A stretch of 64,000 bases of DNA from Diprion similis. Taxonomy: Eukaryota; Arthropoda; Insecta; Hymenoptera; Diprionidae. Where the stretch lies: the NCBI RefSeq assembly GCF_021155765.1, contig NC_060114.1, positions 1,612,001 to 1,676,000 on the forward strand. The letters are read 5' to 3'. Both the position numbers and the translations under genes were made by a program. The notes under the pieces are model-generated. The model was not told the origin of the DNA and did no database searches. It saw only the letters and a list, made by a program, of their open reading frames with translations. Shown piece by piece: positions 14,095 to 56,100 of this stretch. Numbering within the stretch: position 1 is the first letter of the stretch; the number at the start of each line of letters is the position of its first letter.

Positions 14095-14220
14095 GTGCAT
14101 ACCTATACACACTCACCAAAGTGAGAATGTATTGTCGATTTTGACTAGTGGCGTCGCCACTAGTATGCATGTACACGCGGCTACGCAATCTCACTTTGGT
14201 GAGTGTGTATAGGTATGCAC
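14095..14220. repeat. nested palindrome, 32-bp perfect inverted repeat with inner hairpin
   Basis: Arms at 14095-14126 and 14189-14220 are perfect inverted copies. Inside, 14144-14164 is a second palindrome (10-bp arms, 1-bp centre). The 126-bp unit has the shape of a short MITE or foldback element, next to the broken end of a Gypsy pol gene. No clear TSD was found. Confidence 0.9.
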
Positions 14221-14384
14221 GCCGGCGAGAGAGTTGTAAACCGACGCTGAATTCCCTCCAAAAACACCGTCGTACGCGCCAAGAGCCATGCATCGTATTG
14301 TATACATATATGCATACATAGACACATTCGTGACTGTTCGTGACCGCGAGCACCAGCAGCGTCAGTAATAACGAAAGTAATATG

Positions 14385-23100: not shown

Positions 23101-23282
23101 TGGGGATTGTATTTGAGACGAAAAAGTCAGGCAAAAGTTATAAAAGCGAGACGTCATGGCCAAATATCATCAGTCGTCCAGCACCATTGACGAAGCTGAC
23201 ATCTCCACTGAAGCTGACACCTCTGAACGCTCGGTTTCTCCAGAGTCTAGGTCTTCGATTACGTGGAAATTTTGGAAAATAA
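23100..23282 (+). CDS. small conserved Polinton ORF before the capsid gene
   Basis: A 60-residue frame whose end (LTPLNARFLQSLGLRLR) resembles the short 'LT-N--FL-SLGF' protein often found just upstream of insect Polinton capsid genes. It starts in the TAATG overlap with the penton stop. The TATA/TCAGTC promoter at 23139-23175 lies inside it, so it would come from the penton transcript. Function unknown. Confidence 0.5.
   Translation: MGIVFETKKSGKSYKSETSWPNIISRPAPLTKLTSPLKLTPLNARFLQSLGLRLRGNFGK
23139..23175 (+). promoter_or_regulatory. TATA plus TCAGTC promoter of the capsid gene
   Basis: TATAAAA at 23139-23145 and TCAGTC at 23170-23175, again 31 bp apart, inside the small upstream ORF. The capsid ATG is about 145 bp downstream. 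Confidence 0.65.
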
Positions 23283-23316
23283 AAATTCATGTTCGCTGCA
23301 TCCTGTGCGTGTTACC

Positions 23317-25101: not shown

Positions 25102-25107
25102 TACCTA

Positions 25108-26742: not shown

Positions 26743-27301
26743 TTGTTAGATATTTTTGAAAACGAAAATATAGACATTACCATCTGTACTGGGATATGTA
26801 GTGTACCTCCAGTAGATATCAGATCTGGAATAATTGCAGAATTGCATGCAGGGGTGATAGGAGGACATAAGGGCATGACGAAAACATACAGCAGGGTTAG
26901 AGAGAGGTTTTATTGGCCACAAATGCGAGACGATATAAGTGACTTCATTAGAAAATGCGAAAACTGTCAAGAACAAAAACTGGTTCGTGTAAAAACTAGG
27001 GAGCCAATGTTAATAACGGACACTCCATCAGAGGGGTTCGATAAAATCTCACTCGACACTGTAGGCCCATTACCACAAACAACTAGCGGAAATAAACACA
27101 CTTTAACAATGCAAGACAATCTAACCAAATTCTGCATTGCTGTGTCTATTCCGGACATTAGAGCCGAGACTGTAGGCCATGCCATGGTAAAACATCTAAT
27201 TTTGCAATCCGGTGCACCTAAAGTAATACTGACCGATCGAGGGACGAGCTTCGTTAGCAAATTATTACAAAAATAGGCAAAAATTTTCAAAATTAAATAT
27301 A
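26743..27301 (+). pseudogene. Gypsy-env #1 integrase, N-terminal part
   Basis: HHCC zinc finger (H and H in LHAGVIGGHKG, CENCQEQ) and the first two catalytic Asp segments (SLDTVGPL about 27052, LTDRGTSF about 27230). The frame stops at 27274-27276, then a pogo transposon begins at 27302. The rest continues at 29956. Confidence 0.88.
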
Positions 27302-32033: not shown

Positions 32034-34243
32034 ATGGCCGACGATGAAAAGTACAAAGTGCCTCTGTTCGACGGAACGAACTACAGCAACTGGAAGTTTC
32101 GCATGCAAATCCTACTAGAGGAACACGATCTGTTTGAACACGTTGAAAGTGAGTTAGATTTTTTAATCTCACAGCTCCCTGCCGCAACAGCAACCGCTCA
32201 AACTCTTGAGCTGAGGAAAAATGACAGGAAATACAAGTCACTCATAATTCGCCGAATCTCGGACAGTCATCTTGAGTACGTTAAAGAAAAAGATACGGCC
32301 TACGACATGTGGAAGGCTCTCTCTGAAAGTTTCGAGCGTACGGGTGTCTCGAGCCAGCGTCGCTTGAGGAAAACATTGCTAACCATGCGGTATGCACCGA
32401 CAGATTCGATGGCATCTCATTTTTTGAATTTTGATAAGCTGGTGCGAGAGTTAAAATCAACAGGTGCTACATTAGAAGAGAACGATATAGTGTGTCATTT
32501 GTTGCTAACAATGCCGGAAGAATACGACATGGTAGTTACGGCTTTGGAAACTATATCCAGTGAACAGTTAACTCTCAGTTTCGTGAAAACACGGTTGCTA
32601 GATGAAGAAGCAAAAAGAGGTGGGGGAAACGCCGGATCGGCCAATGGAAATTCGTCCTCAGTGTTCTCGGCTACAAGCAATAACCGCTACGGAAACCGAA
32701 AAACAAATCAAAGCGGAAATCGGAACTCGAATCAAAACGGAAATCGGAATTCTAATTCTGAACGGAATAGTACGGGTTTTGGAACACAACATGGCCGGTT
32801 TGAATACAACTGTCATTACTGTGGTATACGCGGCCATAAACGGTCAGAGTGTAGGAAACTGAAAAACAATAACAGAAGCGCGGAAGCGGCGAACACCGCA
32901 AGCAGTGAAAATAACGAAGAGGCCGTTGTGTTTTTAACTAACGAAAACGACAGTTACGCACCTAACCTAAACTGGGTTCTAAACTCGGGAGCTACTGAAC
33001 ACTTAGCAACTAGGAAAACAAAATTAACTAACGTTCGGAAATTACCCACTCCAATAAGCATACGGGTTGCTAAGACAGGTCAACAAATAATCGCGGACGA
33101 AATTGGTGACTTAAGAGTGAACACGCGAGTGAACGGAAAACATATTGACATTTTCGTGACCGGAATTCTATCGGTATCTGGACTCGAGTATAATCTTCTT
33201 TCAGTTCGTAAACTGGAAATGAATGGTTTTTCTGTGACTTTTGAAAACGGGAAAGGAATTATAACAAAAGGAAACACAGTCGCTGCAATTGCGTATCGGA
33301 AAAACAAACTCTACGAACTGTGTGTTGATTATGTAACAGAAACTGTAAATATTTGTCAGTCAGGCGATACAACACGACTGTGGCATCATCGACTTGGACA
33401 TCTGAGCAGCTCAGGGTTGAAGAAATTGATCAATCTTGCTGACGGTATAGACGTGAAGGAAATCGAAACCTCGACCAAACTTTGTGAAACCTGCGTGGAA
33501 GGAAAGCAGACTCGCCTACCACATCAAATGGAACGCATTAGGGCTAAACGTCCTTTGGAGCTGATACACAGTGATCTCTGTGGCCCGATGGATGTTACAT
33601 CTTATGATGGAAAAAGGTACCTACTCACGTTCATTGACGACTTTACACACTTCACTGCAGTATACACGTTAAAAGCCAAATCAGAGGTGCTCAGGTTTTT
33701 CAAAGTGTTCCAGTCAATGGCGGAAGCCCATTTTAATCTAAAAGTAAGCAGATTTAGATGCAACAATGGAGGGGAGTACATCTCAAACGAAACTCGTCAG
33801 CATTTTGAGAACTGTGGAATCCAATACGAGTTTACGATACGCTACACTCCACAGCAGAATGGAGTTGCGGAAAGGATGAACAGGACAATACTTGAGAAGG
33901 CACGATGTATGATTTTGAATTCAAAGATGAACAAGATCTTCTGGTCTGAGGCTGTGACAGCAGCTGTATACCTGATCAATCGATGCCCAACAAATGCCTT
34001 GAAGGACGCATTACCAGCTGAACTTTGGTACGGAGAGAAACCTAACCTGCAAAAGCTTCGAGTTTTTGGTTGTATCGCATATCTTCATATTCCAAAGGAA
34101 TTGATTAACGGAAAGTTTGAATCACGTTCAAAACGCTGCAGACTGGTAGGTTATTGTGCAAATGGATATCGTTTGTGGTGTCAGGATGATAATAAACTAA
34201 TAATGGGTCGAGACGTTATATTCAACGAGTCAAAGTATACGTT
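32034..34243 (+). pseudogene. Copia gag-protease-integrase
   Basis: One open frame from the ATG at 32034. Gag (DUF4219/UBN2 type) has the VPLFDGTNYSNWKFRM start and a CCHC knuckle CHYCGIRGHKRSEC (about 32813). Protease reads LNSGATEH (about 32980), with Asn in place of the catalytic Asp. Integrase has an HHCC finger (about 33385-33500), SDLCGPMD for the first Asp, CNNGGEY for the second (Asn replaces Asp, about 33762) and GVAERMNR for the Glu. Both changes would kill the enzymes. The frame runs into a foreign insert at about 34244. Confidence 0.92.
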
Positions 34244-34565
34244 TGTGTTGGCTTGGTTCGAGCAGAGTCCGACGATACCGGTACTTCTGCACTCGAGCTA
34301 CTGGCAAACGACGCGAGAGGCGTCGTTTCAAAGAAAAGAGCGAGAAGGCTTTCGTGCTCTCTCGCCAGTTCACCTCCAGCTCTGTGAAGGAGCAGTTACA
34401 CAGCCAAAGCTATTCAAAGTCTAATCTGTTAACTATTTTTTGCAAAGAACATTCTAATAAAGTTTATCATTGTAATTATCATCATAATTCCTGTGAAAGA
34501 AATATTATTGAACCCTTTCTACCAATCATCCAATTGTCCCTTCTCTTTGAACTCGTTGAGCTTTT
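34244..34565 (+). mobile_element. about 320-bp foreign insert in Copia pol, possible solo LTR
   Basis: Copia homology stops after FNESKYT (about 34240) and returns by about 34580. The insert starts TGTGTTGG, has TCTAATAAAG (a polyadenylation signal, about 34455) and no credible gene. The size, TG start and AATAAA suggest a solo LTR, but I could not find a clean target duplication or the 3' edge. Confidence 0.5.
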
Positions 34566-34633
34566 CTTTTTCTAATCAAAGAAAGAAATTTCAATAGTTT
34601 GATTCTGGAGATTTCTATGATACTTTAACGGCA

Positions 34634-36379
34634 ATGAAAGAAACAGAGAAAACCCAAGAATCCTCAAATTCAGGCGGAGAACGGAATCAATCATCAGATG
34701 AAGAATTACAAAGTTTCGACAGTGCTGAAGATGATGAGGAAGCAACGTCAAAAGGAGAAGGGAAAGCCTTGAGGAAGAGTACACGTGAGAAACACAAACC
34801 CAAGTTTTTAAATGATTATACTGTTTTAGCTTTGAGTGCAGAATCGTTTGTCGAAAATGTCCCACAACAATTCCAAGATATATATGGACGGGATGATGAA
34901 AAACAATGGTTAACGGTAAATGAGGAAATTACATCGCTCATCGAAAATGAAGCCTGGGACTTGGTACCACTGCCTCCGGGAAATAAAGTCATTGACAACA
35001 AATGGGTTCTCAAGGTAAAGAAGGACGATGATGGAAATATAAATAAATATAAAGCTCGTCTGGTGGTCAAAGGATGCTCGCAAAGAAGAGGACTGGACTA
35101 CGAGGAAACGTACGCACCGGTTGCACGTCTCACTACTGTACGAACCCTTCTGTCGATTGCTAATGAACACAGGTTGAAACTTAAACAACTAGATGTCAAA
35201 AATGCATTTCTACATGGAACCGTAAGTGAAGAGATCTATATGAAACAACCACAAGGGATCACAAACACCGAAGGTTTTGTATGCAAATTAAAACGCTCCT
35301 TGTATGGACTCAAACAAGCTCCAAGGACTAGGAACGCCAGGTTCAACGAGTTTATTCTGAAGCTGGGACTCAAAAGATCAGAACGAGATCATTGCTTTTA
35401 CACAGGAATACGTCTGTACCTTATACTTTATGTTGATGATATCTTGATTGCAGGTGAAGATGAAACTCAGATACAGAATGTCGTAAAAGCTTTAAAAGGT
35501 GAGTTTGCCATGACAGACGTTGGTGAACCAAAGAGCTTTCTTGGTATAAAAATCCTACAGACACCGAGAGGGTTGTTCCTTAGTCAAAAGGCGTATATGG
35601 AGCGAATGCTGATTCGTTTTGAAATGACAGACTGCAATCCATGTAAGACTCCTATGGAAGTAAATCCTGAAAGAAGCGAAGATGATGAAGGAGAAATGAT
35701 AATCGAGACGAAACCTTATCGCGAACTAATCGGATGCCTGATGTTTCTCATGCTAAACACACGTCCTGATATAAGTGTCGCCGTAAATTACTACAGTCGT
35801 TTTCAAAGCAACGCAAGACTGTCTCACTGGAAGGGACTAAAACGAATTCTTCGTTACATCAAAGGTACCCTCGATTATGCTCTACGGTTTGATCGAGGCT
35901 TCAAGTCAGAAATGCCTCTTCAGGTGTATGTAGATGCAAATTGGGCTACAGACAACGATCGCAAGTCGACGACGGGTTTCCTACTACAAGTATATGGATC
36001 AACGGTAACTTGGTCAACGAAGAAACAATCAGGAATTACTCTTTCCTCGACAGAAGCCGAGTATGTTGCTCTAGCAACAGCAATGACGGAAGTGATTTGG
36101 TTAAAGGGACTCTTGCAGGACTGTAGTGTGCATTGTGTTGAACCTATTGTGGTGTTTGAGGACAATCAGTCAGTTATACATTTGTTAAATCGATGGGAAC
36201 ATCGTAGACTTAAGCATGTCGATGTGAAATACAACTTTATAAGAGATATGTACCAAAACAAAGAGATCAATGTGCAATATATAAATACTAAGCAGCAGAC
36301 TGCAGACTTGCTGACAAAAGGTCTAGTCGGAGACCAATTCGTTAAGTTGCGATCAAAAATCGGAGTGTGCAAAATATAA
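34634..36379 (+). pseudogene. Copia reverse transcriptase and RNase H
   Basis: Open frame after the insert, in a different phase from the first part. RT starts at NEAWDLVPLP and has KARLVVKGCSQRRG, QLDVKNAFLHG (first catalytic Asp, about 35185) and LYVDDILIAG (about 35430). RNase H has YVDANWATDNDRKSTTGF (Asp, about 35930), SSTEAEYVAL (Glu) and FEDNQSVIHL (Asp). The catalytic residues look complete. The acidic segment at 34650-34760 is the usual linker after integrase. It stops 45 bp before the 3' LTR. Confidence 0.93.
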
Positions 36380-39776: not shown

Positions 39777-41261
39777 ATGCCTTTCACAATGCGGGACGAC
39801 GAGTCATCGACCAAAGGGTCGACAGATTCGCTGCCGACATTACCGACGGTGCCTCTGCCGGTAAATCCGCCTACTGCTGACCTACTCACAGCTGATGCCT
39901 CTCGTGGTGGAGGCCGACTCACCCGTAGCAGCTCACCGTCCGCGCTTAGTAGCGAGTTATTTTTGCGCGTCAATTCGCAAAATGAATTGATTGAGTCAAT
40001 GGAGGATATGCTCACTCAACTCACGGAAGATCTCACCATGATGCTCGAACAGCTGGAAGAATCTCACTAGGCCTTTCGCAGCGAACATACCTGATTGGTT
40101 TCGCACTGGCCTCCCGCTCATCTTGACCACGCATACTTCACCCGCAAGACCAACCTTGTCGAGTCCAAGTTGGTACTCAAGGTAAAGCGACATCTCGGGC
40201 GTCTCCAAGACAAACTCACTCAGCCCACTCAACCTGCCGTCTCGACTGAAGCCACCTCAAGAGTCCGCTCACGTTTACCAGAGCTCACGGTGCCGAAGTT
40301 CTCCGGTGAGTGCCGCCTGTGGCCGGACTTCAAGGCCATGTTCACTTCGGTCATTGGGTCCAGCAAGGATCTCAGCGAGCTAGAAAAGTTCCAGTACTTG
40401 GAATCGGCAGTGGAAGGCGATGCCGCGGATCTCATCTCCAACCTCGCTCCCTCAGACGGCTCTTTCAACTCAGCCTGGCTCCTGCTCATCGCGAGATACG
40501 AGAACAAGAGGCTCATTGTGAAATCTCACCTCGAGAGAGTCTTGGCGCTCAAGCCGATGCAGAAGAGGCAAGCCAGCTCATTGACCAAGATGGTCAATAT
40601 CATCCACCAGACCACTCAGGCTCTCGCGACTCTCACAAATGAGACCAATAATGATTGTCTCATGGTCACGCTCGTCTCAAATCTGCTCGACTCAGACACT
40701 CGTGAGAAGTGGGAAACTTCCTTAGTCTCGTCTACTGAATTTCCCACCCTCGGTCAGCCCACGAACTTCCTCATTGCTCGTGCTCGTACCTTGGACAGCA
40801 TGGAAGACGACTCAACGAAGGCTCAGGTCTCGCAGGCGAAGGGTGCTGTGCCAAAACGCAGTGCTGGCCATCACGCAAGCTCATCGAGGACTCAAGCGAG
40901 CTCATCAAAGACTCCGCAGACAGCTCAAGGGTCCACGCAGTCAGCTCCTGCCTCGTCGCTCTCATCAGGCTATTCTTGCGACAGCTGCAAGCAGGACCAT
41001 TTCATAGTGGTCTGTCCACGCTTCCGAGGCCTCTCAATGGAACATCGAGTTCAGCTCATCAAGGAGAGAAGCCTGTGCTGCAATTGTTTGGGGAGGCACA
41101 ACATGAGAAAATGCAACAGCAAGAGGCTCTGCAAAACTTGCAACGGATCTCACCATACGATGCTGCACGGTGCTGACCTCTCATCCGTCTTCACCTCTCC
41201 TGCTACAGCTCGGACCACTCAAGAAACGCCGTCAACCTCTGCAGCCTCGCACTTGGCATGA
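39777..41261 (+). pseudogene. BEL/Pao gag
   Basis: One frame from the ATG at 39777, with stops TAG 40068-40070, TGA 40092-40094 and TGA 41259-41261 but no frameshift. It has the BEL gag core (LPKFSGE-like LTVPKFSGECRLWPDF, LESAVEGDAADLI) and a C-terminal cysteine cluster (CDSCKQDHFIVVC, CCNCLGRHNMRKC, CKTCNGSHHTMLH) of knuckle type. Serine and glutamine-rich linker at about 40830-40960. Confidence 0.9.
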
Positions 41262-44200
41262 AGCGAGTTCACCCCAGCCAACTCAACAGACCACGCACCG
41301 ACCAGAGCACTCATCGGAGCCAGCACGCCCATCTTGCTGGCAACTGCCACAGCAACAATCTTCTCATCTACCTCATCGCACGAGGTACGACTACTGGTCG
41401 ATCCTGGTTCAGAAATCTCATTCATCTCAGAAGGTCTCGCCAGGCAGCTGAATCTCAAAAGGAGGTATGCGAAATTGGATATCTGGGGAGTGGGAGGAAA
41501 GAAGACCGCTCAGGCAAAAGGTGTCGTCTCCCTTACCCTGACGTCAAGATTCACCCTTGCAAGATCTGCTGACGAGGTTTTGGATCCAGGAAGAAACTCC
41601 CACCTCAACTGACTCTCACCTGTCACCTGAAGAGCAGGAGTGCGAAGAACACTTCGCATCTACTCACTCAAGGGATGGAAGCGGACGATACATCGTCAAG
41701 CTGCCACTCAAATCATCACCAACGGTGCTGGGAGACTCATACAGAACCGCTCATCAATGCCTCCAACGGATCTGCAAAAGGTTAGCCAGGGACACTCAGT
41801 ATGGTGAACTCTACACTCAGTTCATGCGTGAGTACGAACAATCTCAGCACATGATCAAACTCAATGATAACTCTCTCACGAGCCAACCTCATTATTACCT
41901 GCCTCATCATGGTGTTCTCAAGCCAGAGAGTTCCTCAACGAAGCTCAGAGTAGTTTTCAACGGCTCCAGCTCCAGCTCTACCGGGTATTCCCTGAATGAT
42001 CTCATGCACACCGGTCCAAACCTGATGCTCAACATATTCGACCTACTCATCTGGATTCGACGATACAAGTATCTCTTCGCGACGGACATCACCAAGATGT
42101 ACCGTCAAATCAAGATACATCCTGCTGACTGGGATCTCCAACGGATTCTCTGGATGGATGAGCAAGGATTGGAAGCTCACTATCAACTCACCACGGTCAC
42201 GTATGGCACAAAGGCAGCTCCGTTCTTAGCGGTAAGAACACTCATTCAACTGGCTCAGGATGAAGGCAGTAAGTACCCTCTTGTTGTCGAGCCAATCACT
42301 CATGGCCGATACGTCGACGACATCTTTGGAGGATCCGACTCAGTTGAAAATCTCATTCAAACTGCCAATCAACTCACTCAACTGTGCCATGCGGGCGGAT
42401 TCCCGTTGGCAAAATGGCATTCGACATCACCAAGGCTTCTTGAAGCCGTCTCATCGGAGCGAAACAACTCATCCACGATCTCCTTCGACGACTGCACCAC
42501 CAAGATTCTCGGAATACGGTGGTCACCTCAGCAAGACACTCTAGACTTTTCGACCATCTCCACATCGCACTCAAACAGATTTTCAAAACGCCTCATCCTC
42601 TCAGAAGTAGCACAACTCTTTGATCCGCTGGGCTTCGCAGCCCCAGTTGTAATCAGAGCGAAAATGTTTCTACAAGAACTCTGGTTGCACAAACTCAATT
42701 GGGACGATTCACTTCCAGAACAGCTGATCTCACGATGGCGCAGCATTAGACAAGATCTCACCAGTCTGGCCAGACTCTCAATCCCACGCTGGTTCAACAC
42801 ATTGTCCGACTCAACGGTTGAACTACACGGATTCTCTGATGCGTCACAATTCGCAATGGCAGCTGTTGTGTACTTAGTCGTCCACTCTCCGTCCACTGGC
42901 GCCAACGTCTCGCTCATTTGCTCAAAGACGAAGGTCTCACCTCTCAAGCGTCTAACCATCCCGAGGTTAGAACTCACGGCAGCGCTGCTACTCTCCACGT
43001 TAATTCATCATGTTTGCGCTACTCTAAACATGAACATTACCAAAACTCATTTGTGGACGGACTCTCAAGTGACACTCTCATGGATCAAAGCTCATCCCTC
43101 AAGGTGGAAAGACTACGTCAGAAACCGAGTGACCAAGATTCAAGAACTCACCGAGGGAACTCAATGGAGGCACATCGCAGGCACCTCAAATCCAGCTGAC
43201 TGTGCATCACGTGGAATAACCACAGATCAGCTCGAACACCATCCTCTCTGGTGGTCGGGACCACCATGGATGACTCAACCAGAGGACTCTTGGCCCTCTG
43301 AACCAGAGACCGCCCTCGACGATTTGTGCGCACAAGAAGCCAGGGCCGGGGTCTCACTACATGCATCTCACTCAGTCAAGGAGTATCAATGGGATCTCAT
43401 TCACCGATTCTCATCGCTCACCAAACTCTTAAGAATTACTGCTCTATGCATCAATTTCACCAAGAAGCTCTCAGGAAACCTCAACTCTTCACCAGCCGCA
43501 GAACTCATCACCTCAGCAGAAGTAGAAAACTCAAGACTGTTCTGGGTCAAGGCCACTCAAGCAGTCTACTTCCCAGAGGAACTCGCCCTACTCAGACGAC
43601 AAGGGCAGCTGTCTCCATCCAATCCTCTCTGCAAGCTCACTCCATTCATAGACAGCGATGGTGTGCTCAGAGTGGGTGGACGGCTAGACAATGCTGAACT
43701 CTCATACGATGTAAAACATCCTGCAATTCTTCCTCGCTCATCAAGATTCTCCGAACTGATCATCGCAGACGCTCATCAACAGACGAAGCATGGAGGCACT
43801 CAGTCAACGCTAGCATTCATCAGACGACTCTATTGGATAATCGGCGGCAGTGCTCCAGTAAAGTCTCACATTCTCAGGTGCGTGGTGTGTGCTCGCCAAA
43901 GGGGGATCCGTGCACATCAACTGATGGGCCAACTACCTCTGGCGCGAGTCACACCATCACGCCCTTTCTCTCACACTGGAATCGATTATGCTGGCCCACT
44001 CACTCTCAAGACGTGGAAGGGTCGATGCTCAAAAACCTACAAGGGTTGGATCTGCGTCTTCGTCTGGAAGTGGTTTCAGATTACTCAACCGAAGGTTTCA
44101 TCGCAACCTACAGACGTTTCACCTCCAGACGAGGAATTCCATCAGCCCTCTACTCGGACTGCGGAACCAACTTCCTGGGTGCTGACGCACAACTCAAACA

Positions 44201-44897
44201 GTGCTTCGCCGCAAGCTCAGCAGGTCATCACAAAATCTCAACGGTACTGGCTCAAGACAGGACTCAGTGGCATTTCAACCCCCCCGCAGCTTCTCACATG
44301 GGTGGAAAATGGGAAGCAGTGGTGAAGTCTCTGAAATTTCACATGAGGCGAACAATTGGAGACGTATCACTCACGTTCGAGGAAATCACTACTCTTCTCA
44401 CTCAAATTGAAGCAATTCTCAATTCCAGACCACTCGAGCCACTCAGCGATGACCCAGATGACACTTCAGCACTCACACCGGGACACTTCCTCATTGGCAC
44501 TGCTCTAAATGCCGTTCCTGAGCCATCTCTTCTGGAACTTCCTACAAATAGATTGTCTCGATGGCAATTTATCCAACAAAGGATGCAACAGTTCTGGCAC
44601 ATGTGGTCGACTCAATACCTGCAGCGATTGCAAGCCATCTCCAAGTGGCATCACCCACACAACAATATTCAGGTGGGCTCACTAGTACTACTCACTGATG
44701 AACGTTTACCACCAGGAAAGTGGCCTATGGCCAGGGTACTCAAGCTGCTGCCAGGAAAGGATGGACTCACCAGGGTGGTATCTCTGAAGACAGCCACATC
44801 TACGCTCACCCGACCAATTGCCAAGCTTGTGCTCCCAGTGACGTCTCCAGGAAACTCATCATCAACACCGTTGCTGATGGCGGGCGGAAATTTTTGA
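41262..44897 (+). pseudogene. BEL/Pao pol: protease, RT, RNase H, integrase
   Basis: Protease reads LLVDPGSEISFI (about 41390), with Pro at the usual Ser/Thr of the active site. At about 41590 an internal deletion plus frame change joins the protease straight to the RT N-terminus. RT: TDITKMYRQI (about 42078) and GRYVDDIFGG (about 42310). RNase H: GFSDASQFAMAA, RLELTAALLL, WTDSQVTLSWI. Integrase: HHCC finger (about 43770-43890), GIDYAGPL, YSDCGTNFLG and GGKWEAVVKS. A frameshift lies at about 44065 between the first and second integrase Asp. The protein ends 44897. Confidence 0.92.
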
Positions 44898-45456
44898 GAA
44901 TAAGTGTTCTCAAAGGCAGCCCCAGACGGCTGTCGCTCGATGTGGACTAGCCCGCTCTCCCACGGTTGCCGAGGACGCGCCTTTACACCGGCTTCTCCGG
45001 CAGCTTTTACACTCTCATTAGTCTCGCGCTCAACACGTGTTTCAAGGTGCTCAGTGAAAACTCTTTTCTCTTGTATTTACTCATGTAAGAAGGCCGCTCA
45101 ATTGATTAGTACAATCAAGAAGTCTTCTCACCTGATTAATATAATCGTAAAGACCCTAAGTGAAATACATACATTTTCTCTCACTTTCTTACACACTCTC
45201 AGACTCTCACACATACATACCTACATACACACATTCTTATTAAACTGTAATTTTGAATAAATAGTGGAGTTATAGCAAATGTTCGACGTCCTTATCATCT
45301 TGTATAATTATTTCTCTCATTCCTAAACAGTGTATATACATATTTTGTCATACCCTGATATCGTATATTGCCGAATTTTCCATTGGTCATTTGTGTATTA
45401 GCTGTGTATAAAAATTGTTACTGTTACTTTTGAAAGACATCCGCTAACAAATTAAA
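44898..45456. other. BEL 3' end and leader of Gypsy-env #2
   Basis: 559 bp without a gene. The BEL 3' LTR probably starts at TGTTCTCAAAGG (about 44905). Short CA/TA-rich runs lie at 45200-45240 and AATAAA at about 45256. The right part should hold the Gypsy-env #2 5' LTR and primer site, but neither could be recognised. Confidence 0.4.
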
Positions 45457-46866
45457 ATGGCTCACCAATCTGGAAACCAGAGCGCGGACCGAACCAATGT
45501 CACGAATCGAAGCGTTAACGATTCAACGATAATAGACTACTATGCCTTACAACAGAGCATGGCAAATATATCCCATTTCGACGGGAAAAATATTCGATTA
45601 AAAGATTTTTTGCAAGACGTTCATAACGGTTCGATATTCGTACCACCAAATGCGGAAGCAGCATTTATAAAGGCTGTTATATCAAAACTTCAGGGTAAAG
45701 CGCGCGATAGTACATATGGAAAGACATTCGAGACAATCGATTATTTAACAAAACACCTAAAGAAACGGTTTGCCGCGAGGAAAACTTTTCCTTATTACCA
45801 ACAAGAGATTTCGTCTCTACTGATGAGACGCGACGAAACCGTCAGTGATTTTCACGATCGACTTAACATCTTAATACACGGTGCTAGAGTCGCGTTAGAG
45901 GACAAGTATCCGGGGGCGGACATAGAAGGTACCATGAATGTATTAAAGGAAAATGCTTTGGATGCGTTTATGCGAGGATTACCAGTATCCATATTTAGGT
46001 ATATTGAGGGACGGGTAAAAACCCTCGACGAGGCCCACGACCTAGCGTGCAAGACGGAAATGCGAATTGAACAAGGGATAGTCCCTTCCGAGGAAACCCA
46101 AAGAATACAACTGGCTCGACCAGTTTCTCCTGCTCTTTCCGACGATTACTATAGGTCGCGAAAATATTTAACACACTCAGTTTTGGAAGAAAGCGGAACA
46201 CGTGCGAGAAGCCCGTCGCCGAGTGCGGCCCGGCACAGCAGGTATCCGACGGCAAGCGCTAGCGGGAGGTCGTTACCAACCACGTCCGAAACGCGCGGGT
46301 ATTACCCACCTAAATATAATTATAATACCCAGCACGGTCAGCCTTTTCAACACAACGCAAATGCGCAATACGGACAACCGTTCCAATATCCTCCTTTTCC
46401 TTACTTGTATCCACCGATGGGATACCCCTATTTTCCACCATATGGGTACCCGCCTGCTATGACGAATACTTCGGCTTCTAACCAACAACTCGCTCTACCT
46501 GCACCGACTTCGACTCCCGCGTTAAATTATCAAAGACCGCGATCGCCTAATTTCAGCCCGAATAGATCGGCATCTCCATCAGGAAGGTGGCCCGAAACCA
46601 GCGGATCAGGCAATCGAACGAACAGACCATATTCACCTAATTCGTTCTCGCGTTCGTATGACACAAAAAGATCAACAGAAAATGACAGAGCGCGATCAGC
46701 TTTGCCGAGTAGGGATTCTGAATCAGATCATTTAAACTACAACGCGACTCGTCGCCCGGACGCGACGGCGAGGAGCGCGACGACCGAGCGTCTGCCGACG
46801 GTCCGATTTGCGGAACCACCGGCCGGAGAACACACACGGGCGAGCAACGTAGAAAATCGCCGCTAA
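45457..46866 (+). CDS. Gypsy-env #2 gag
   Basis: An intact 469-residue frame. Capsid-type helical core (residues about 30-215: SNISHFDGKN-like start, AFIKAVISKLQGKARD, YYQQEISSLLMRRDETVSDF). The tail is Pro/Tyr/Ser-rich with tandem short blocks (QHGQPFQ, QYGQPFQYPPFPYLYPP) and ends basic. No CCHC knuckle is visible, as in errantivirus-type gags. The TAA stop overlaps the start of pol in another phase (46863 on), so a ribosomal frameshift was probably used. Confidence 0.85.
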   Translation: MAHQSGNQSADRTNVTNRSVNDSTIIDYYALQQSMANISHFDGKNIRLKDFLQDVHNGSIFVPPNAEAAFIKAVISKLQGKARDSTYGKTFETIDYLTKHLKKRFAARKTFPYYQQEISSLLMRRDETVSDFHDRLNILIHGARVALEDKYPGADIEGTMNVLKENALDAFMRGLPVSIFRYIEGRVKTLDEAHDLACKTEMRIEQGIVPSEETQRIQLARPVSPALSDDYYRSRKYLTHSVLEESGTRARSPSPSAARHSRYPTASASGRSLPTTSETRGYYPPKYNYNTQHGQPFQHNANAQYGQPFQYPPFPYLYPPMGYPYFPPYGYPPAMTNTSASNQQLALPAPTSTPALNYQRPRSPNFSPNRSASPSGRWPETSGSGNRTNRPYSPNSFSRSYDTKRSTENDRARSALPSRDSESDHLNYNATRRPDATARSATTERLPTVRFAEPPAGEHTRASNVENRR

Positions 46867-47529
46867 TACGAATAACCGCTCCAGAATTAAAAAACCACTC
46901 AGGCGAATTCCTAAGCACCCTTTATTTGAGGAAAAGACCAAAAGAAAAGTTTCAAAATTCTTAGAAAATCTTTATGTCAACAACCAATTCTACAATATCC
47001 AAATTTTGCAAAACCTTTCATTCTGACTACTGATGCATCCGATTACGCCATCGGAGCCGTTTTGAGTCAGGAAGTCGACGGCTACGATATGCCTGTTGCC
47101 TACCTGTCTCGTGCTCTGAACAAGGCTGAACAAAATTATTTTACCACCGAAAAGGAATGCCTCGCAGTAGTGTATGCCGTGAACCAGTTTCAGCCTTATC
47201 TTTATGGCCGAAAATTCCAACTTTTTAGCGATCACGAACCACTAAAATGGATCGATAACTACAAAGATCCGGGACAAAGGTTAGTACGATGGAGGCTTAA
47301 ACTAAGAGATTATGATTACGAATTCAATCATAAAGCCGGACGATTAAATGTCAACGCGGATGCGCTTTCACGTAACCCAGTCCCTGAATCGGACGGTAAC
47401 GACCAATGGTCGAACTCATCTGATAATGATAGTGACGGTAGTAATTTTATAGTAAAGTCAGTAGAGGACTTTCCGAAATATTCAGACTTTTTGAAAATAA
47501 CTAAAACAGCAGAAATTAAAAATCCGGAC

Positions 47530-47945
47530 ATAATAGAAATAGGCGAGAGTGTTTTCGACAGACTCGACAATTACGCACATACAGTTTCAGCGGATCTAGA
47601 GATGAAAGCCGGCATTGCAGTCGACTTCCGAAAACGGTACGGTGTACCGGATCATCTCATTAGTCAAGCCGATCTACACTCAGTAGCAAAGTTAGATTTA
47701 CCGGATCACAAAATTTATTATATTATGACTAAATTATATTTTTGAGATAAACCAACTTATGAAGATTTGTATCGCAGTTTGATAAATTTCCGAAAAATTT
47801 TAGAAGACGATTCAATAAAATCAGTTAGAATACCTAGAATGGGTTGCGGCTTGGACAAATTAGAATGGCACAAGGTTAGAATTATGTTACGATACATATT
47901 CAGAGGAACAGGAATTAAAATCTATGCCTGTACAAATTTAGCCTT
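47530..47945 (+). other. OARD1/TARG1-like macrodomain within pol
   Basis: Between RNase H and integrase. It follows the OARD1 pattern throughout: GESVFDRLDNYAHTVS start, SADLEMKAGIAVDFRKRYG (ADP-ribose loop), IYYIMTK with the Lys that is catalytic in OARD1, KPTYEDLYRSL, and IPRMGCGLDKLEW with the second key Asp, ending IKIYACT. OARD1 removes ADP-ribose from glutamate. One in-frame TGA (47743-47745) sits after the catalytic Lys. The match is by pattern recall and was not computed. Confidence 0.75.
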
Positions 47946-49439
47946 GATAGAAAACCAAAGCCTCAAAACGATATTTGCTAAAACCAATCCGTTACCTGCT
48001 CTAAAAATAAAACCAAAACGTAATCATTGGCAGATTTTACCACTTAGCTCGAATCCTCCTAAAACAGCGACGTCAAAGTTTAAGAGACCAATCGCGAAGT
48101 CAACTCCCTCCGCAATAGGCAAATCACCGTCAACCAAACCAAGCTCATCCAGCACTACTAGAAAATCAGGTGATGATAGTTTTCAACCGAAATGGAAATA
48201 CCAAAAGACTATTGAACCGGTTGCGAATACAATCGCATCCAGAACACGATCGAGAGTCAAAACAACACCTAGTGCTAGACAAGACCTGAATCCGATACCA
48301 GGGGCCAATTCGACGGATTCATCCGATGATGAATCCTCCGAACGACCGGCCTACCGAAAACAGCGCAGTGTACTGCCGAGTTTAGGTTCAGAACAATCGA
48401 CTACATCTCAGAAAACAAGAGAACAGGAACAGACCGACATACAGTCTGAAACAAATAGCGACGCGGATGACGAATCTAATTTAGAACCTGATAATATAGC
48501 CATTGAATTAAAATCAACACGACAGAATAGCGATTCAGACGATGATGTATTTTTGCCTCCACAATCAAATCGAAAAATCAGTAACAAATTACCAATAGAT
48601 CATGAAGAATTACAGAAATCATTCGAACAGTTTGATAAATCATTGCATGAAAGAAGTATAATAGATCCAAAAGAATTACGAAAATCATTTGACCGTTTTG
48701 ACAAATCATTACACGAGAAAACCCTTTTAGATAACTCAAATGATACAGACGAAGAAGAAAGAGAAATAGAACTACCAGATGCTATATCAGAAGGCGAAAA
48801 TTTAGAGGAGTTAGCTCGCAAAGTACTAGATGAACTAGACGAAACAGATGACGAAATTCTGAATAACAAAATTGAAAGATTTATAGAACGAGTGAAGAAT
48901 AACAAAGGCAGTAACGACGAGGCTGTCGAAACTGAGACCGTTGAGAGTAATTCCAACGAATCTTTAGTTAGCAGACCTTTACAAAAATCAACTCTACCAA
49001 CACCTTTAGTTGCTCCCCGACCAATAGCACTATCTACTCCGTATCCTTTAAGTATGATACCAGAGTTCAATGAAACAGGGGATATTTCAATACGAAACAA
49101 AGTCACTAAGACGCCGAGACGTTTACAGCCACAATTAGAGAAAGCTAGTTTCGGAAACGGGATCAAAATTACAGAAAAGATACCACCAGACCTAGAAGAG
49201 AGACAACCTTTAAGTTTACCAGTTGCAACTTGCACTAATCGAGGAAAAATTTTGCTAAGCAGAGAAAATTTAACCTATCATAAAGATAATTATGTTTATT
49301 TTACATCTATTGATTCAGAACTTTCGACACCAATTAGCAGACTGCTAGGTGATTTAGAAATTATAAATGCGAATGAACAAAAAGCAACAAAACCAAAATG
49401 AAGCTAAATCATTATAACAAATCATGGTAAACACCGAGT

Positions 49440-49690
49440 ATTTGGACTCGTGATAAAAGAAAAATATTACGATAAAATAGAAATTCAATATGTAAGAAAC
49501 GCACTGGAAAATTTAAAAGACGTATTAATAGAACTCAAAATTAAAACGTTTAGAATCTCGAAATCAGGAGACCTGACGGATGAACTACAATCAGAGACCA
49601 TACCTAAATTACTGTTAGATGTTTTCAAAGAACAAGACATTGAGATTACTATTTGCCTAGGAATGACCGAAATACCACCGGCGGAAATTA
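49440..49690 (+). other. second, half macrodomain-like segment before integrase
   Basis: The pattern HRVFGLVIKEKYYDK, ALENLKDVLIELKIKTFRI, LLLDVFKEQDIEITICLG copies the second half of the upstream macrodomain (IYYIMTK, SLINFRKILEDDSIKSVRI, IMLRYIFRGTGIKIYAC) but lacks the GCGLD loop. Segments of this type occur before integrase in many insect Gypsy elements. A degenerate duplicate is my reading. Confidence 0.5.
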
Positions 49691-50710
49691 GATCCGGGAT
49701 AATAGCAGAATTACACGCGGGAGTGATCGGAGGACATAAGGGAATGACAAAAACGTAACGCAGGATAAGGGAAAGGTTCTATTGGCCACGAATGCGAGAC
49801 GATATAAACAACTTCATAAAAAAATGCGTAAGTTGCCAAGAACAGAAATTGGTCCGTGTAAGGACTAGGGAGCCAATGTTGATAACGGATACTCCATCAG
49901 AGCCGTTCGAGAAAATTTTACTCGACACTGTGGGCCCATTACCACAAACACCTAATGGTAATAAGCATATTTTAACTATGCAAGATAACTTGACCAAATT
50001 CTGCATCGCCGTGGCCTTGCCTGATATTAAAGCCGAAACCGTAGCTCACGCGATGGTGAAACATTTGATTTTGCAATTCGGGACACCAAAAATAATTTTG
50101 ACAGACAGAGGAACAAGTTTCGTAAATAATCTATTACAGAAATTAGCTAATGCTTTCAGAATTAAACACGTTACTACATCGAGTTATCGCCCGCAATCTA
50201 ATGGCGCTTTAGAACGAAGCCACATAGTTTTAACAGAATATATAAAGCATTATATAAACGAGTTCAACGATTGGGACGAGCTAGTTCAATTCGCGATGTT
50301 TTCATATAATACGGCAGTTCATGAAGCCACAAACTTTACACCGTATGAACTAGTTTACGGAAGAACCGCGCGTTACCCAAATTCATTCGACACAAATGAA
50401 AATCCTCCAACGTACAATTCCTATCTCGTAGATCTTATGATTAGAATGAAGGAAATGCAAACCTTAGCTGCTAATAACTTAGTGCAGGCAAAGGAAAGTT
50501 CGAAAAGGTATTACGACAGGAAAGTGCATCCTTTTAAAGGCAAACCAGGGGACATGGTACGCGTGCAAATAGAAGCAAGGAAAGGAAAGTTTAGCAAACG
50601 ATATCAAGGACCATATAGAATCATAAAGGTTTTGGAAAACAATAACGTGGTGTTAGAGGATAATAATGGTGAAAGATTCGTAAAACATAAAGACAAACTC
50701 GAATTGACTT

Positions 50711-50728
50711 ACTGACTGACTGACTGAC
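50711..50728. repeat. TGAC microsatellite
   Basis: Four to five units of CTGA/TGAC directly at the integrase stop codon. In Gypsy-env #1 the same place has one unit, so it expanded after the copies split. Confidence 0.8.
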
Positions 50729-50872
50729 AGAGTTGACCGAACAACCGGAAATAATGAGGATTTACTTTCGAGGACTACGGAAACAAAGGGACATGGAAAC
50801 GATGAAGAGATTACTACCCAGGAAAAAATTGCCAACCCTTACAATATGGCCAGTGATGGCGCGGCACTGGGC

Positions 50873-51215
50873 AACTAATCGTTGATGGTCAACGTTGGGC
50901 CCAAACCTGGGTCAATCTATTCACCATTGCTGAACCTATGCTCAGTTCAAGCATTGGCATATAACGAATGGCCAATTATGGGCTGATATTGTTTTGACGA
51001 TGGCAAACGACCGTTGGTGATCAACGTTGCTCCAACCTTGGGCCAATGTTATTTGCCATTGCCGAACCCATGCTCAATTCAAGCATTGGAATACAACGAA
51101 TTGCCAACTCTAAGCCGGTATCGTTGTGACGATGGCAAACGACCGCTGGTAATCAACATTGCCCTGACCTTGGGCCAATGTTATTTGCTATTGCTGAACC
51201 CATGCTCAGTTTGAG
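50873..51215 (+). repeat. 132-bp tandem repeat, about 2.5 copies, transposon B end
   Basis: Units starting near 50873, 51006 and 51138 share AACGACCG-TGGT-ATCAAC, TTGGGCCAATGTTATTTGC and GAACCCATGCTCA. They lie between the Gypsy-env #2 end and the transposase start, as expected for subterminal transposase-binding repeats. Confidence 0.8.
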
Positions 51216-52725
51216 CATATTTGGCGTCATATAATCAAACAACAAAACGATTAAGCTATTTTGAATTTTCATTTATTATTCGTTTGTGGATACATTATAA
51301 AAATATTTTTCATAAGTTTGTGAATTTCTATTGTTAAGATTTTTTATTGGAAAGGTTTCTTCATTCTTCGGAAACGATTGATTGTCATTATTAACTTTTG
51401 CATTTTTTTAACCTCAAAAAAACTTTATAGTGCACGCAGTGTGTAAATATGTAAAGATAATATATAACAGTGTAAATAATAAGTCACCAGTCATGTCGAA
51501 AAGATATTATAGTGTGAAGAAAGGTCGAGAATTAAATAAAATAACAAAAAATCAAAATACAGAAGAGGAGGTGGCGTACCAATATAAAGAAGAACTCGAG
51601 CACATTGTTGAAAATAAACAATTATCAACAGAAAAGTGCTCAGATATTCTGAATAATAAGCAATCGGATGGCGTATTCGATGAAGAATCTGATGAACAAT
51701 CTATCGAAGAATTTTCGGAGCTATTGAGTGATTTGTCAACGGGTGGCGAAAATGAGAAATCCGATGAAGAATCTGAGCCTTGTCCTGTCGAAGTTCCGAC
51801 ATTAAAAGAAAAGCTGGTCGCTTTTGCACTAAAACATGCCGAAACGCTGCCACATAACATCCTCACAGATCTTCTGACATTACTTCGCTCTGAAGGATAT
51901 GTAAACTTACCGAAAACAGCGCAGACACTTTTGGGTACTCGTCAGTACAAGAATGTGCAGCCAATGCTCAGTAAAAAAGGGACTCTAGGGAAATATGCGT
52001 ACATTGGGATAGAAACCCAATTAAATAAAAAAATCTCTCCTGATATTTACACTGATACTCAAATCAATGTATTTGTAAATATAGATGGTGTCCAAGTGTA
52101 CCGCAGTTCGAACAAACAATTCTGGCCCATCTTGATGAAAATTCATCACGATAATTTCGAATGTCGACCGTTCGTGATTGCAATTTACTTCGGCGATTCA
52201 AAGCCACACACTGTGTCTGAGTTTTTAAAAGACTTTGTTTTCGAAGCAGAGGCATTGATCACAGGTGGTGTCGTCGTTGCTGGAAAAAAATTCACGTTTC
52301 GGATCACTGCATTAATATGTGATTCACCGGCTCGATCATACCTCAAGTGCATCAAAAGCCCAGGAGGTTTCCATGCGTGTGAACGTTGTACTGTGAAAGG
52401 TGTCACCATCAACCGGAAGCGAGTGTATCCAAATCTTGATTGCCCAAAAAGAACGGAGGAATCATTCCACCTAAAAACAGATAAAAATCATCATTTGCCT
52501 AATCAGCTGACAGCGCTTCTTCAATTACCAGAATTCAACATTATCAAGTCCGTTCCGCTCGATTCGATGCACCTCCTATTTTTAGGAGTAATGAAATTAC
52601 TGCTCGAAAAATGGACAGCTCGCAGTAGTCCTTCCCGGATGAAAAAATCAAAGCTGCGTATTTTCACTGAGTTGATGGCTTCGCTGGAATCGATGGTTCC
52701 AGCAGAATTTCAGCGAAAAGTCTTC

Positions 52726-52776
52726 AGCCGGGTACAGACTTGAGCACGAACGCGAATGAGGCAGGCCGAGGCCGCA
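52726..52776 (+). repeat. Harbinger left TIR
   Basis: Perfect inverted copy of 56203-56253 over 51 bp. Confidence 0.93.
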
Positions 52777-53291
52777 TGAGCATGCAAGTGTGGACGTCGA
52801 TCCGAGGCGCGGCAAACTGCCTCAAGTCGTTCGGCGCACGGCCTCGGACCGAGCCAAATGTTGTCGGTCGATCAAAAGAAATTCGTGCTCAGTCTGGACG
52901 TGTTCGTATGCGCATCAACAAGTTGACGTTTCACCGCGAACAGAGCATCGGAAAACCAGGGTATGTGCGGTAATTATAATTCCTAATTATTCCATTTTAT
53001 AATACAAAATTGTATCTATTCATTCATTTCATAATACGGGTTGAATTAAAATTCCATTTGTATTTTTTATCTGATTTTTTTTACTTGCTGCGTTATTCTT
53101 ATTTATACAAATACTACTTGTTGATTAATTAAATAATTAATCAATTTTTAGTTAATTTACTCTTTTTTTTGTTTGATTCGTAATGTTTAAAATCGAATAA
53201 TAATTAAGTCGCAGTTAACATGAAGGAATTACTACACCATGTATCGCAATGTAACGTGTCTATTTTTTTTTAGTAACTTTTTTTCTTTGAA
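52777..53291. other. Harbinger left subterminal and MADF gene leader
   Basis: 515 bp with no credible gene. A GCGGCAAACTG motif (about 52809) has an inverted partner inside the right TIR (about 56150), a possible binding site. The rest is AT-rich leader. Confidence 0.4.
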
Positions 53292-55525
53292 ATGGAATGG
53301 GATGAAGAAACTTGCATAAAGCTGATTGGCGAGTACAGAAACAGAGAAATTTTGTGGAATCCTCGAAATGCTTCGTATTATAATAAAATACGAAAAGAAG
53401 ATGCTTGGAGAGAAGTTTCTGAAAAAATTGGAAAAGATATTGATGACGTAAAAAAAAAGATGGAGAGCCTGAAAGGTTCCTACAGACGAGAGAAAACGCG
53501 AATGAAAAAAAGTGTTGGAACTGGAAAAGGTAAGATATAAAGAATGAGAGATTCAAAAACAATGAATATATATTTGTAAAATAATAAAAAAAGGAAAAAA
53601 ATATATATTTGTAAAATATACGTACAATTGCAGGACGAAATGAGGTTTACACATCTAAATGGTTTGCGTTCGAATATTTAAACTTTTTGGATGATAAGAA
53701 CGAGGTTCGGAAGACTTCAAGTGTAAGTATTTTTATTTGAAACTATTGTGAACCTTACAAACACTTATCAATTGTAATAATTTTGCCACGGTACACTACC
53801 ACAAGTACAAAAATATTCCGTGAACTCTTCTCGTATTTCTTGCGCGATTAGTTTTGTTCTTCGAGGTATATTTTGTAATGGTAAAAGAGATGCCATTTCT
53901 TGCTGATCATTTCGCCAGTATCCAGATATTATTTCTCCATTCTGAACATAATCTACAGATCCAGTAGGTGTATAGAGATTTCTTGAAGTGTTACTTCTGC
54001 GTAAAAAATTATGTAAAGTTACCACTATCATTACAACCAGTTCCGCTTTTTCTGGTTGTAACAACATTGGTTTTCGCAAAACTCTGAACACACTAGCTGC
54101 AATGCCAAAGGCATTTTCTACTACGCGACGTGCCCTTGATAAACGGTAATTGAAGATTCGTTTTGGAGATCCTACTGGATGAATGCCTGAGTAGGGTTTC
54201 ATTATATGCTCATTAAGAGGAAAGGCTGCATCTCCCAATAAGACGTAGGGAACTTCCATTTTTCTCCCAATTAAAGCTGAAGGCTTGGGTAACTTCAAAT
54301 TTTCTTTCTCGAGTTCTTTAAAAAATTCACAATTTTTGAAGACACCTCCGTCTGAAATCCGTCCTTGAGCGCCAATATTAACGAATATAAAATTGTAATC
54401 AGCATCTGCTACCGCCATTAAAACAATGCTGAATTGGGATTTATAGTTGAAGAATTCGCTTCCACTATTTATTGGAGCTTGTAAAATGACGTGCTTTCCG
54501 TCAACGGCTCCAATACAATTTGGGAAATTCCATGTCTCATTAAATGCATCAGCAATGCTTTTCCATTCATTACAAGTTGACGGCATCTGCAATAAAAATA
54601 TCTCGGTAGTAATAAAATAACAACAAATAAAATAATTTAAAAAAAAACAATGAAATTATAATACATTTAGTCCTACTCTAATCTAGTCTGGTCTACTCAA
54701 ATGTTCAATCATTCCAAAAAAACTATAACAATATGCATTTACTTATACAGTCGTTTATTATTTGCATAGAATGTACGAACACCAACCGACGAAGAAGAAG
54801 AAGAGGATTCCAGCAGTGAAATACAAGACGAGACTCTCGGAGAAAAAGAAGAAATTGGAAATAAACAAACCGCGAAGGACGTAATTGATGAACAAATACC
54901 AGGCAAAGAGCTATCGGATAAAGCAAATACTAAAGAGTTTAAGTCACCAAAAAAACGTACAATAAAACGAAAACGGGATGACGAGGACCCGAGAATCGCA
55001 AAAGCATTTGGGTACCTCGAAGAAGCAACAGCAGCCACGAAGCAGAAAAAAGACCAATGTAGTCTTTTTGGAGAGTACATTGCAGATAAACTGCGTACAT
55101 TTGACGCTCGTACTCGTGCCGTCGCGCAACATCGAATTAACAACGCTCTATTCGAATTAGAAATGAGTGCATATCAGCATCCGGAAACTCCACTCACACA
55201 ATCTTCTTTTCCCATTCATTCTTCCGAAAGAAATGTTTATCAATCACTCGCTCCGTATAACCAGAATGAAACACGATTTGCTTACAACGATCAATTTCAT
55301 CGAACACAAATTTCTCCAAGTTGTACTCAACCTCCCCCGCATTCGTCTAATTTCCAACAACAGATATTACGTCCACCTACTCCACAAACACTCGTCACTG
55401 ACAGTTCTCGCTCTTCCACTCCAATAAGTCAGATAAATTCGCCGTATCCTTCTCCTCAAGAAAACAATTCGCCCTCTTTATGCAATTATTTCCACCAATT
55501 TTCCGATTCATCTAATGATGTTTAA
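53292..55525 (+). CDS. Harbinger MADF (Myb/SANT-like) DNA-binding protein, three exons
   Basis: Exons 53292-53529, 53634-53722 and 54770-55525 join in frame to 360 residues. Exon 1 is a MADF domain (CIKLIGEYRNREILWNPRN, DAWREVSEKIGKDIDDVKKK). Exon 2 completes it (WFAFEYLNFLDD). Exon 3 has an acidic stretch, KKRTIKRKRDDEDPR (nuclear signal), a short BESS-like helical region (about 55050-55160) and a long Ser/Pro/Gln tail. In Harbinger elements this partner binds the TIRs and brings the nuclease to the nucleus. Intron 2 contains the second exon of the opposing transposase gene. Confidence 0.85.
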
Positions 55526-56100
55526 TAATGAGTCTCCATAACTCATTATCACTACAGAGTCACTTCAATCACTATAATATTCATATATTTGTACTTCATA
55601 TATTTACTACTAATAAAAATGTTTGTGACAACTATATTAATATTGGTTATATTTTTACTTACCTTTACGTGATCTTTAAGACAATCGATTATTGCTCGGC
55701 ACACGTCTGGGATTATTTCCGATATCAATTGTTTCGATATTTTGAATAGATATTGCAAACTAGTGAAGGAATCACCTGTTGCAAGAAATCTTAAAGTTAC
55801 AGCCAATCTTTCTTCAGGGGAGACTGCTTTTCGGAAAACTGTATCTTTTTTGGATATTTTGTCTTTGATAGAATTGAGAATGAAATTGAAATCATTGCGA
55901 GACATTCTTGTAAAATTTTGAAAATGACCGCTATCTTCAGTTACAAGATCATTTAATATTGAGGTATTAATTTCTGTTCTCCTCCGATACAGGTGGCGTG
56001 ACCACCAACGTCTTTTCTTTTTTAGTTTTTTATTTTTTTTCAATAATAAACAAATAGTTATAAAACTTGCACAAGCAACTGCGACATTTGCGTCAGCCAT
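53768..56100 (-). CDS. HARBI1-type transposase (DDE_4), two exons
   Basis: Exons 56100-55663 and 54586-53768 give 418 residues, with GTAAGT donor and GCAG acceptor and frame kept. Exon 1 has the RRWWSRHLYRRR segment and an HTH-like region (VSPEERLAVTLRFLATGDSF, YLFKISKQLISEII) typical of HARBI1 proteins. Exon 2 has the catalytic triad: CIGAVDGKHV (Asp, about 54505), VLLGDAAFPL (Asp, about 54243) and RARRVVENAFG (Glu, about 54125). The normal HARBI1 protein is about 350-420 residues. Its intron (54587-55662) holds the last exon of the MADF gene on the other strand. Confidence 0.9.

Follow-up and report, generated by a model that had tools for sequence, protein, structure and literature searches.

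A TARG1-type macrodomain in the pol gene of Ty3/Gypsy elements of Diprion similis: identity, spread and possible function

Why would a retrotransposon carry, between the RNase H and the integrase of its polyprotein, a domain of the kind that handles ADP-ribose? This question is raised by a Ty3/Gypsy copy of the hymenopteran Diprion similis, which lies in a stretch of 64,000 nucleotides (NCBI RefSeq assembly GCF_021155765.1, contig NC_060114.1, positions 1,612,001 to 1,676,000 of the forward strand), hereafter termed the window, whose own numbering is used below. A sequence-only reading of the window had proposed a full, readable macrodomain at 47530-47945 in the pol gene of an env-bearing element, with the catalytic residues of human OARD1 (TARG1, C6orf130) kept, and had regarded the domain as a trait of the family. 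The analysis reported here confirms that the region holds a real OARD1/TARG1-type macrodomain (macro1) between RNase H and integrase, and adds a degenerate second one (macro2), which the earlier reading had overlooked.

The two macrodomains of the window copy

The Gypsy copy of the window, assigned to a family designated B, is laid out as follows; all pieces of pol share one frame, which ends at 50715.

45330-50719, + strand: preserved part of the family-B copy (blastn against the related copy L032, 97.5-97.9% identity)
45457-46866, + strand: gag open reading frame (ORF), 469 residues (Pfam Retrotrans_gag 2.9e-4, under the curated cut-off)
46912/46913, + strand: deletion junction, about 1.6 kb gone relative to L032 (L032 2734-4355; blastn)
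47065-47313, + strand: RNase H (Pfam RT_RNaseH 7.4e-28)
47506-47937, + strand: macro1, OARD1/TARG1-type macrodomain, split by an in-frame stop (PDB match, macro1 profile)
47731-47733, + strand: Lys codon of YIMTK, aligned with TARG1 Lys84
47743-47745, + strand: in-frame TGA within macro1
47854-47856, + strand: Asp codon of GCGLD, aligned with TARG1 Asp125
47950-49227, + strand: long linker between macro1 and macro2, polar and repetitive by eye in the part viewed
49228-49677, + strand: macro2, degenerate OARD1-type macrodomain by profile matches, with in-frame stops at 49399 and 49405
49675-49848, + strand: integrase zinc finger (H2C2), broken by an in-frame stop at 49756-49758 (Pfam 0.011 and 0.0075 in two pieces, under the cut-off)
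49897-50193, + strand: integrase core (Pfam rve 2.3e-13)

The identity of macro1 is carried by several searches. The piece ahead of the in-frame stop (47401-47742) matched human OARD1 in the PDB with an E-value of 5.9e-6 and no Pfam family, while the piece behind the stop reached 0.057 with Pfam Macro, under the cut-off. A macro1 profile that included close relatives recovered both pieces, 47506-47739 at 2.3e-20 and 47746-47937 at 7.2e-23, and an intact family-B relative matched OARD1 by itself at 1.3e-22. Moreover, the structure model of the family-B domain resembles TARG1 with a template modelling (TM) score of 0.92 by target length, and TARG1 is the nearest solved relative of macro1 by sequence as well as by fold. 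Both the profile search and the structure prediction that had been proposed as checks thus came out in favour of the domain. Chance similarity as the source of the match is ruled out by the E-values and the fold.

The catalytic residues are likewise in place, as had been claimed. In PDB entry 4j5q the counterparts of the YIMTK Lys and the GCGLD Asp are chain positions 78 and 119, which the entry numbers as Lys84 and Asp125, and these two residues are given as catalytic for TARG1 in the cited passages of PMC9411070. Both are invariant across the 30 rows of the macro1 alignment, including all six rows from elements. The position of the domain was also read correctly, with RNase H upstream and the zinc finger and core of integrase downstream. 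Of the full, readable domain, on the other hand, only the presence stood: the TGA at 47743-47745 falls between the two catalytic codons, the pol frame holds further stops at 49399, 49405 and 49756 before the integrase core, and the reverse transcriptase (RT) and the protease end make up the stretch gone at 46912/46913, as judged by comparison with L032 and with the intact copy L037. The zinc finger, which is broken here, gives a Pfam match of 7.4e-21 in an intact relative. No Pfam domain was found in the linker at an E-value of 0.1 or better, and neither long terminal repeat (LTR) of the window copy was found when 43301-45460 was compared with 50701-56000.

Macro2 was recognised by a profile that included relatives (49228-49398 at 1.2e-19 and 49408-49677 at 1.7e-38), and the macro1 profile also reaches it (1e-12 at 49414-49656). 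Its relation to OARD1 is seen with a seven-row macro2 profile (1.6e-9) and in a profile-profile comparison (8.5e-17). The GCG loop that corresponds to ADP-ribose binding is gone in all seven rows (one retains it in part), the catalytic Lys is kept in 7/7 and the Asp position varies; judged from this alignment, macro2 is a degenerate OARD1-type domain that lacks the GCG loop and the full dyad. For families A, B, D, F and G (one copy apiece) and for a protein of the sawfly Athalia rosae, which has both macro1 and macro2, the zinc finger of integrase comes immediately after macro2.

Intact relatives, selection and the spread of the trait

A DNA search with window positions 47440-48000 returned nine places: besides the window itself, six at 89-90% identity and two closer ones at 99% and 95%; the domain is present in all nine because the query was the DNA of the domain itself. 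Each of the six copies at 89-90% holds a 452-residue ORF in the gag position and an open pol of 1841 residues with macro1 and macro2. In L037, the sole family-B copy scanned with Pfam, the order is gag, protease, RT, RNase H, macro, zinc finger and integrase core, with gag at 23.9 against a cut-off of 24.1 and the macro match under its cut-off as well. L037 spans at least 12,684 bp, and its terminal repeats show no difference over 1,920 bp or more, which marks it as a young insertion. With gag, the protease-RT-RNase H-integrase order and terminal repeats, L037 is a Ty3/Gypsy LTR retrotransposon.

The claim of an env-bearing element was not supported for the family of the window. The window copy cannot show an env because its match to L032 breaks off shortly behind pol, and in L037 the stretch of 1,736 bp that separates pol from the 3' repeat contains plus-strand ORFs of at most 67 residues and no env ORF, no profile search for a decayed env having been made. 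It is the sister family A that has env: the ORF behind pol in L015 encodes a fusion glycoprotein (Monjiviricetes_fusion 4.1e-72). Family A shows a 664-688-residue ORF in the gag position in seven of the 11 copies read (L009-L012, L015-L017) and a pol frame of 1676-1724 residues in six of them. The pol of L015, the only family-A copy scanned, comprises RT, RNase H, macro1 (Pfam 2.4e-8), zinc finger and integrase core; protease was not matched there by Pfam. Family D was covered by scoring the best 150 out of 243 candidates, which yielded at least 35 near-full-length macro1 places of 84-100% identity; eight of these sit in frames of 1801-1802 residues. Altogether, a long open frame including macro1 is found in at least 20 copies (six of family A, six of family B, eight of family D).

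Selection was estimated from the ratio of non-synonymous to synonymous rates (dN/dS) between L037 and L032. It amounts to 0.041 in RT-RNase H (390 codons) and to 0.063 in macro1 (135 codons; 28 synonymous and nine non-synonymous changes), compared with 0.259 in the linker, 0.170 in macro2 and 0.161 on the integrase side, where 56 codons were available. For macro1 of the window against L037 the ratio is 0.097 when the stop codon is left out (26 and 12 changes). Macro1 of family B therefore looks to be under constraint. A separate observation concerns L019 (G000:C1:16427000-16436900), whose synonymous divergence from L015 is 0.075 in RT-RNase H and 0.456 in macro1, as if its macrodomain region had been swapped by recombination.

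How far the trait extends among relatives was assessed independently of the domain, from RNase H. At 112 of 150 listed RNase H places, a macro place was sought up to 1.8 kb downstream with two query proteins, of which the best-scoring matches were listed, so that domains may have gone undetected, and fragments are among the places; 72 had one and 40 had none. Grouped by RNase H identity to family B, places with and without the domain number 9 and 0 at 80% or more, 12 and 1 at 61-79%, 42 and 10 at 57-60%, 9 and 14 at 53-56%, and 0 and 15 below 53%. From this comparison the trait is therefore a lineage marker that is absent or lost in some nearer groups. The sequence-only reading had named relatives without the domain as a sign against a family trait; such relatives do occur, some at closer range than the 15, but the own family of the window has the domain at 9/9 places, and several further families share it, so that the trait itself was upheld. 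A one-off insertion is ruled out by the presence of the domain in multiple copies and families.

Two groups illustrate the relatives without the domain. In L047, from a group with 1140-residue frames, a zinc-finger-like stretch starts by eye about 120 residues behind RNase H, and the 1.1 kb after RNase H in L046, from a group with 1896-residue frames and an RNase H of 56-57% identity, is a polar linker. Neither of these, nor another Gypsy element in the window at 13900-18300, gave a macro1 or macro2 profile match at E <1, while L037 as positive control gave both. No Pfam Macro was found at E 0.001 in window positions 14042-16147 and 16177-18171, and searches with family-D macro1 and macro2 revealed nothing beyond L046 towards integrase among the matches listed (best 150 candidates each).

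An older family-B copy in the window was said to have the same domain at the same place. It consists of two parts:

25102-27297, + strand: macro1 end, linker and macro2 (26461-26808), 74% identical to L037
29955-30502, + strand: integrase end, 80% identical to L037

The place is as expected, but of macro1 only the GCGL end is left (about 25104-25210), with the frame broken.

With respect to origin, the best explanation is that a Ty3/Gypsy lineage gained an OARD1/TARG1-type domain in pol after RNase H and that a second one now sits before integrase. Approximately unbiased (AU) tests weakly reject one clade, with p 0.036 for 12 macro1 rows and p 0.041 for macro1 and macro2 together, on long branches; the RT-RNase H tree of 12 rows leaves five of its nine inner branches open. 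Several loci and proteins accompany this picture. L044 (G000:C1:16468400-16471400) has two successive macro1-type stretches, the first partial, and macro2 before the zinc finger. Contig C1, on which L044 lies, opens with TTAGG repeats. At L041 (G000:C2:13509100-13512800), two adjacent OARD1-like genes, in which the macrodomain lies in two stretches as if divided by an intron, are apparently the host's own OARD1 paralogues. The family-A macro protein found at least 108 places at E 0.001 among the best 150 of 182 candidates scored in the genome, some of which are host exons or second macrodomains. In protein databases, the family-A domain had nine matches, with a sawfly protein as its closest named relative. 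One match, P0005, is already annotated with RT, RNase H, integrase and Macro together, while P0004, P0006-P0008 and P0010 are without RT or Gypsy integrase in Pfam or precomputed domains. In IMG/VR, 80 loci were retained from 123 matching stretches, at 28-40% identity.

Side observations were made on some of these sequences. P0006-P0008, from the mayfly Cloeon dipterum, unite a DEAD helicase with Tudor domains and an OARD1-type macrodomain (the order having been checked in P0006 alone), a possible link of ADP-ribosylation to a host protein of the PIWI-interacting RNA (piRNA) type. P0010 joins an OARD1-type macrodomain to a tyrosine recombinase and P0011 has one ahead of RT, hinting at more captures by further classes of mobile elements. 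In a Gypsy-like frame of 1386 residues in L022 (G000:C14:3852200-3862100, minus strand), the RT end, RNase H and integrase are followed by a macrodomain, behind which come an aspartyl protease and the beginning of another macrodomain; L020 has a relative of the first macrodomain.

Eraser, reader or passenger

What was observed amounts to two OARD1-type domains at fixed places, a catalytic dyad and low dN/dS in macro1, a degenerate macro2 and at least one recent insertion. The function that most likely fits macro1 is that of a predicted ADP-ribosyl hydrolase in pol, which would take off host ADP-ribose marks, and this suggests that such elements tamper with a marking system of their host. The wider reading, of a lineage in which macro1 is a predicted active hydrolase on substrates of the element or the host and macro2 its degenerate partner, is considered rather probable. 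As a part of Gag-Pol, macro1 would be carried along in the particle and in the integration complex, where it may strip ADP-ribose from proteins of the element, from the termini of its complementary DNA (cDNA) or RNA, or from chromatin proteins of the host where the element inserts; this removal would blunt PARP-driven repression or damage signalling. Macro2 probably does not hydrolyse and may act as a structural or binding module beside integrase. That the domain would counter host ADP-ribosylation, as first suggested, is plausible. In the cited part of PMC7712786, mobile elements tend to rise in Drosophila without PARP-1, with nine of ten further raised elements belonging to the gypsy superfamily, and the passages drawn from PMC9411070 list Glu/Asp-linked ADP-ribose and nucleic acid as TARG1 substrates.

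A number of points weigh against the hydrolase reading. The window copy itself is old and dead, and the family-B domain alone scored 19.0 bits with Pfam Macro (PF01661; cut-off 22 bits), which family A passes at 34.4 bits; none of the 280 candidates in a protein-database search with the family-B domain was a relative at E 0.001. The dN/dS check that had been called for stood in family B, at the value given, but that low value comes from one main copy pair and is without error bars, and in four pairs of young family-A copies macro1 gives 0.25-0.76, values that are noisy at seven changes or fewer (a fifth pair has zero changes, and comparison with the diverged L019 gives 0.17). The second macro1-type domain of L044 is without the GCGLD motif, and related groups, some nearer ones included, are without a detected domain. 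According to the same part of PMC7712786, moreover, the ten elements missed the limits of significance, some elements fell, and de-repression may be indirect. Insects are without most vertebrate PARPs and insect-specific alphaviruses lost macrodomain activity, as stated in the section cited from PMC10221186, and that of PMC12632316 proposes binding, and not hydrolysis, as the important feature for chikungunya virus in mosquitoes. Because of the PARP-poor insects, the alphavirus loss and the binding in chikungunya virus, an eraser whose substrates belong to the element or to chromatin, at work inside particles or during integration, is favoured over a simple antiviral-PARP role.

The main rival to an eraser is a reader beside integrase, in which the macrodomains would bind to damaged DNA or to chromatin bearing ADP-ribose and steer the integration complex to such sites, much as chromodomains guide other Ty3/Gypsy integrases. 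The position of macro2 directly before the zinc finger, in one copy each of five families and in the Athalia protein, is what such a role would lead one to expect, as is the binding without hydrolysis proposed for chikungunya virus (PMC12632316, in the section cited); yet a pure reader has no need of the two catalytic residues that all six element rows of macro1 keep, and the glycine-rich GCG loop is gone from macro2; this role is held to be unlikely. Unlikely too is a nucleic-acid substrate, macro1 freeing the cDNA or RNA of the element from ADP-ribose in the manner of DarG and TARG1, both of which de-modify DNA according to the cited passages of PMC9411070. DarG structures are the next-best fold matches of macro1 behind TARG1, and three element domains match the DarG model NF048014 of NCBIfam, but at 32.4, 48.4 and 39.8 bits these matches stay far under the cut-off of 250 bits, and by this measure the element macrodomains would not be counted among DarG antitoxins.

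That a host OARD1 sequence was caught by chance and rides along as a functionless passenger could be read from the host-like OARD1 genes with an intron in the genome and from the related groups that do without a detected domain. This is very improbable, given that macro1 comes close to RT in dN/dS where the pair of copies offers enough changes, that several families and other insects have the domain, that it was doubled, and that catalytic residues are kept. Distinctly doubtful would be a twin module for ADP-ribosylation-guided integration, made of an active TARG1-type eraser and, beside integrase, a degenerate partner that binds ADP-ribose or protein, which would find PARP-marked chromatin or breaks and silence the alarm; if this is true, the integration complex would sense and rewrite ADP-ribosylation at its own insertion site.

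Known systems, neighbouring elements and meaning

Macro1 resembles human OARD1/TARG1 in sequence, predicted fold and the Lys84/Asp125 dyad, but is situated inside a polyprotein, in one uninterrupted frame in the gap between RNase H and integrase, and is paired with a degenerate copy. Fish epsilon-like retroviruses, which occasionally have macro-domain ORFs (PMC4977317, in a passage citing Basta et al. 2009), likewise unite a macrodomain with a reverse-transcribing LTR element; by description only, theirs are additional ORFs, whereas the present domains are of the OARD1 type, doubled and within a Ty3/Gypsy pol. Capture of an eraser by Gypsy elements is also described, in the part of PMC9289625 cited, for orchids, whose Ty3/Gypsy elements carry an N6-methyladenosine (m6A) RNA demethylase active in vitro, in their case as a separate ORF2 and with RNA methylation chemistry. 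Coronaviruses have up to three macrodomains, of which the first alone is catalytic (cited section of PMC10221186), a set comparable with macro1 and a degenerate macro2, and together with alphaviruses they are further carriers of viral macrodomains. In a viral structure library, the best fold matches of macro1 include Kadipiro virus VP8 and proteins of virga-, negev- and flavi-like viruses, besides phage proteins and unnamed entries; the likeness to these macro-fold regions of RNA viruses, several of them insect-associated, is structural only. Carriage of macrodomains by LTR elements and capture of erasers by Gypsy elements are already known, and no report of a macrodomain in a Ty3/Gypsy pol was found, by title or opening of the abstract, among the matches listed in an open-access literature search.

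The window holds other elements besides. A BEL/Pao element lies at 40095-44325 (Pao peptidase, Pfam 1.3e-53), a copia-type element at 32034-36379 (RVT_2 2e-70), and a double jelly roll capsid-like protein at 23263-24528 (Pfam DJR-like 6e-117), which fits the Polinton named earlier. Two tandem repeats of 132 bp, 83% identical, stand at 50918-51181, right behind the point where the Gypsy copy breaks off at its 3' end.

Macrodomains are known tools of RNA viruses for countering host defence, and the Gypsy case, in which several families have kept a TARG1-type domain intact while multiplying, apparently under RT-like selection and with a second copy beside integrase, points to ADP-ribosylation as one of the fields on which insect genomes and retrotransposons contend. 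Since insects are poor in PARPs, the substrate may be easier to find here than in vertebrates; the small size of the domain also puts direct tests within reach.
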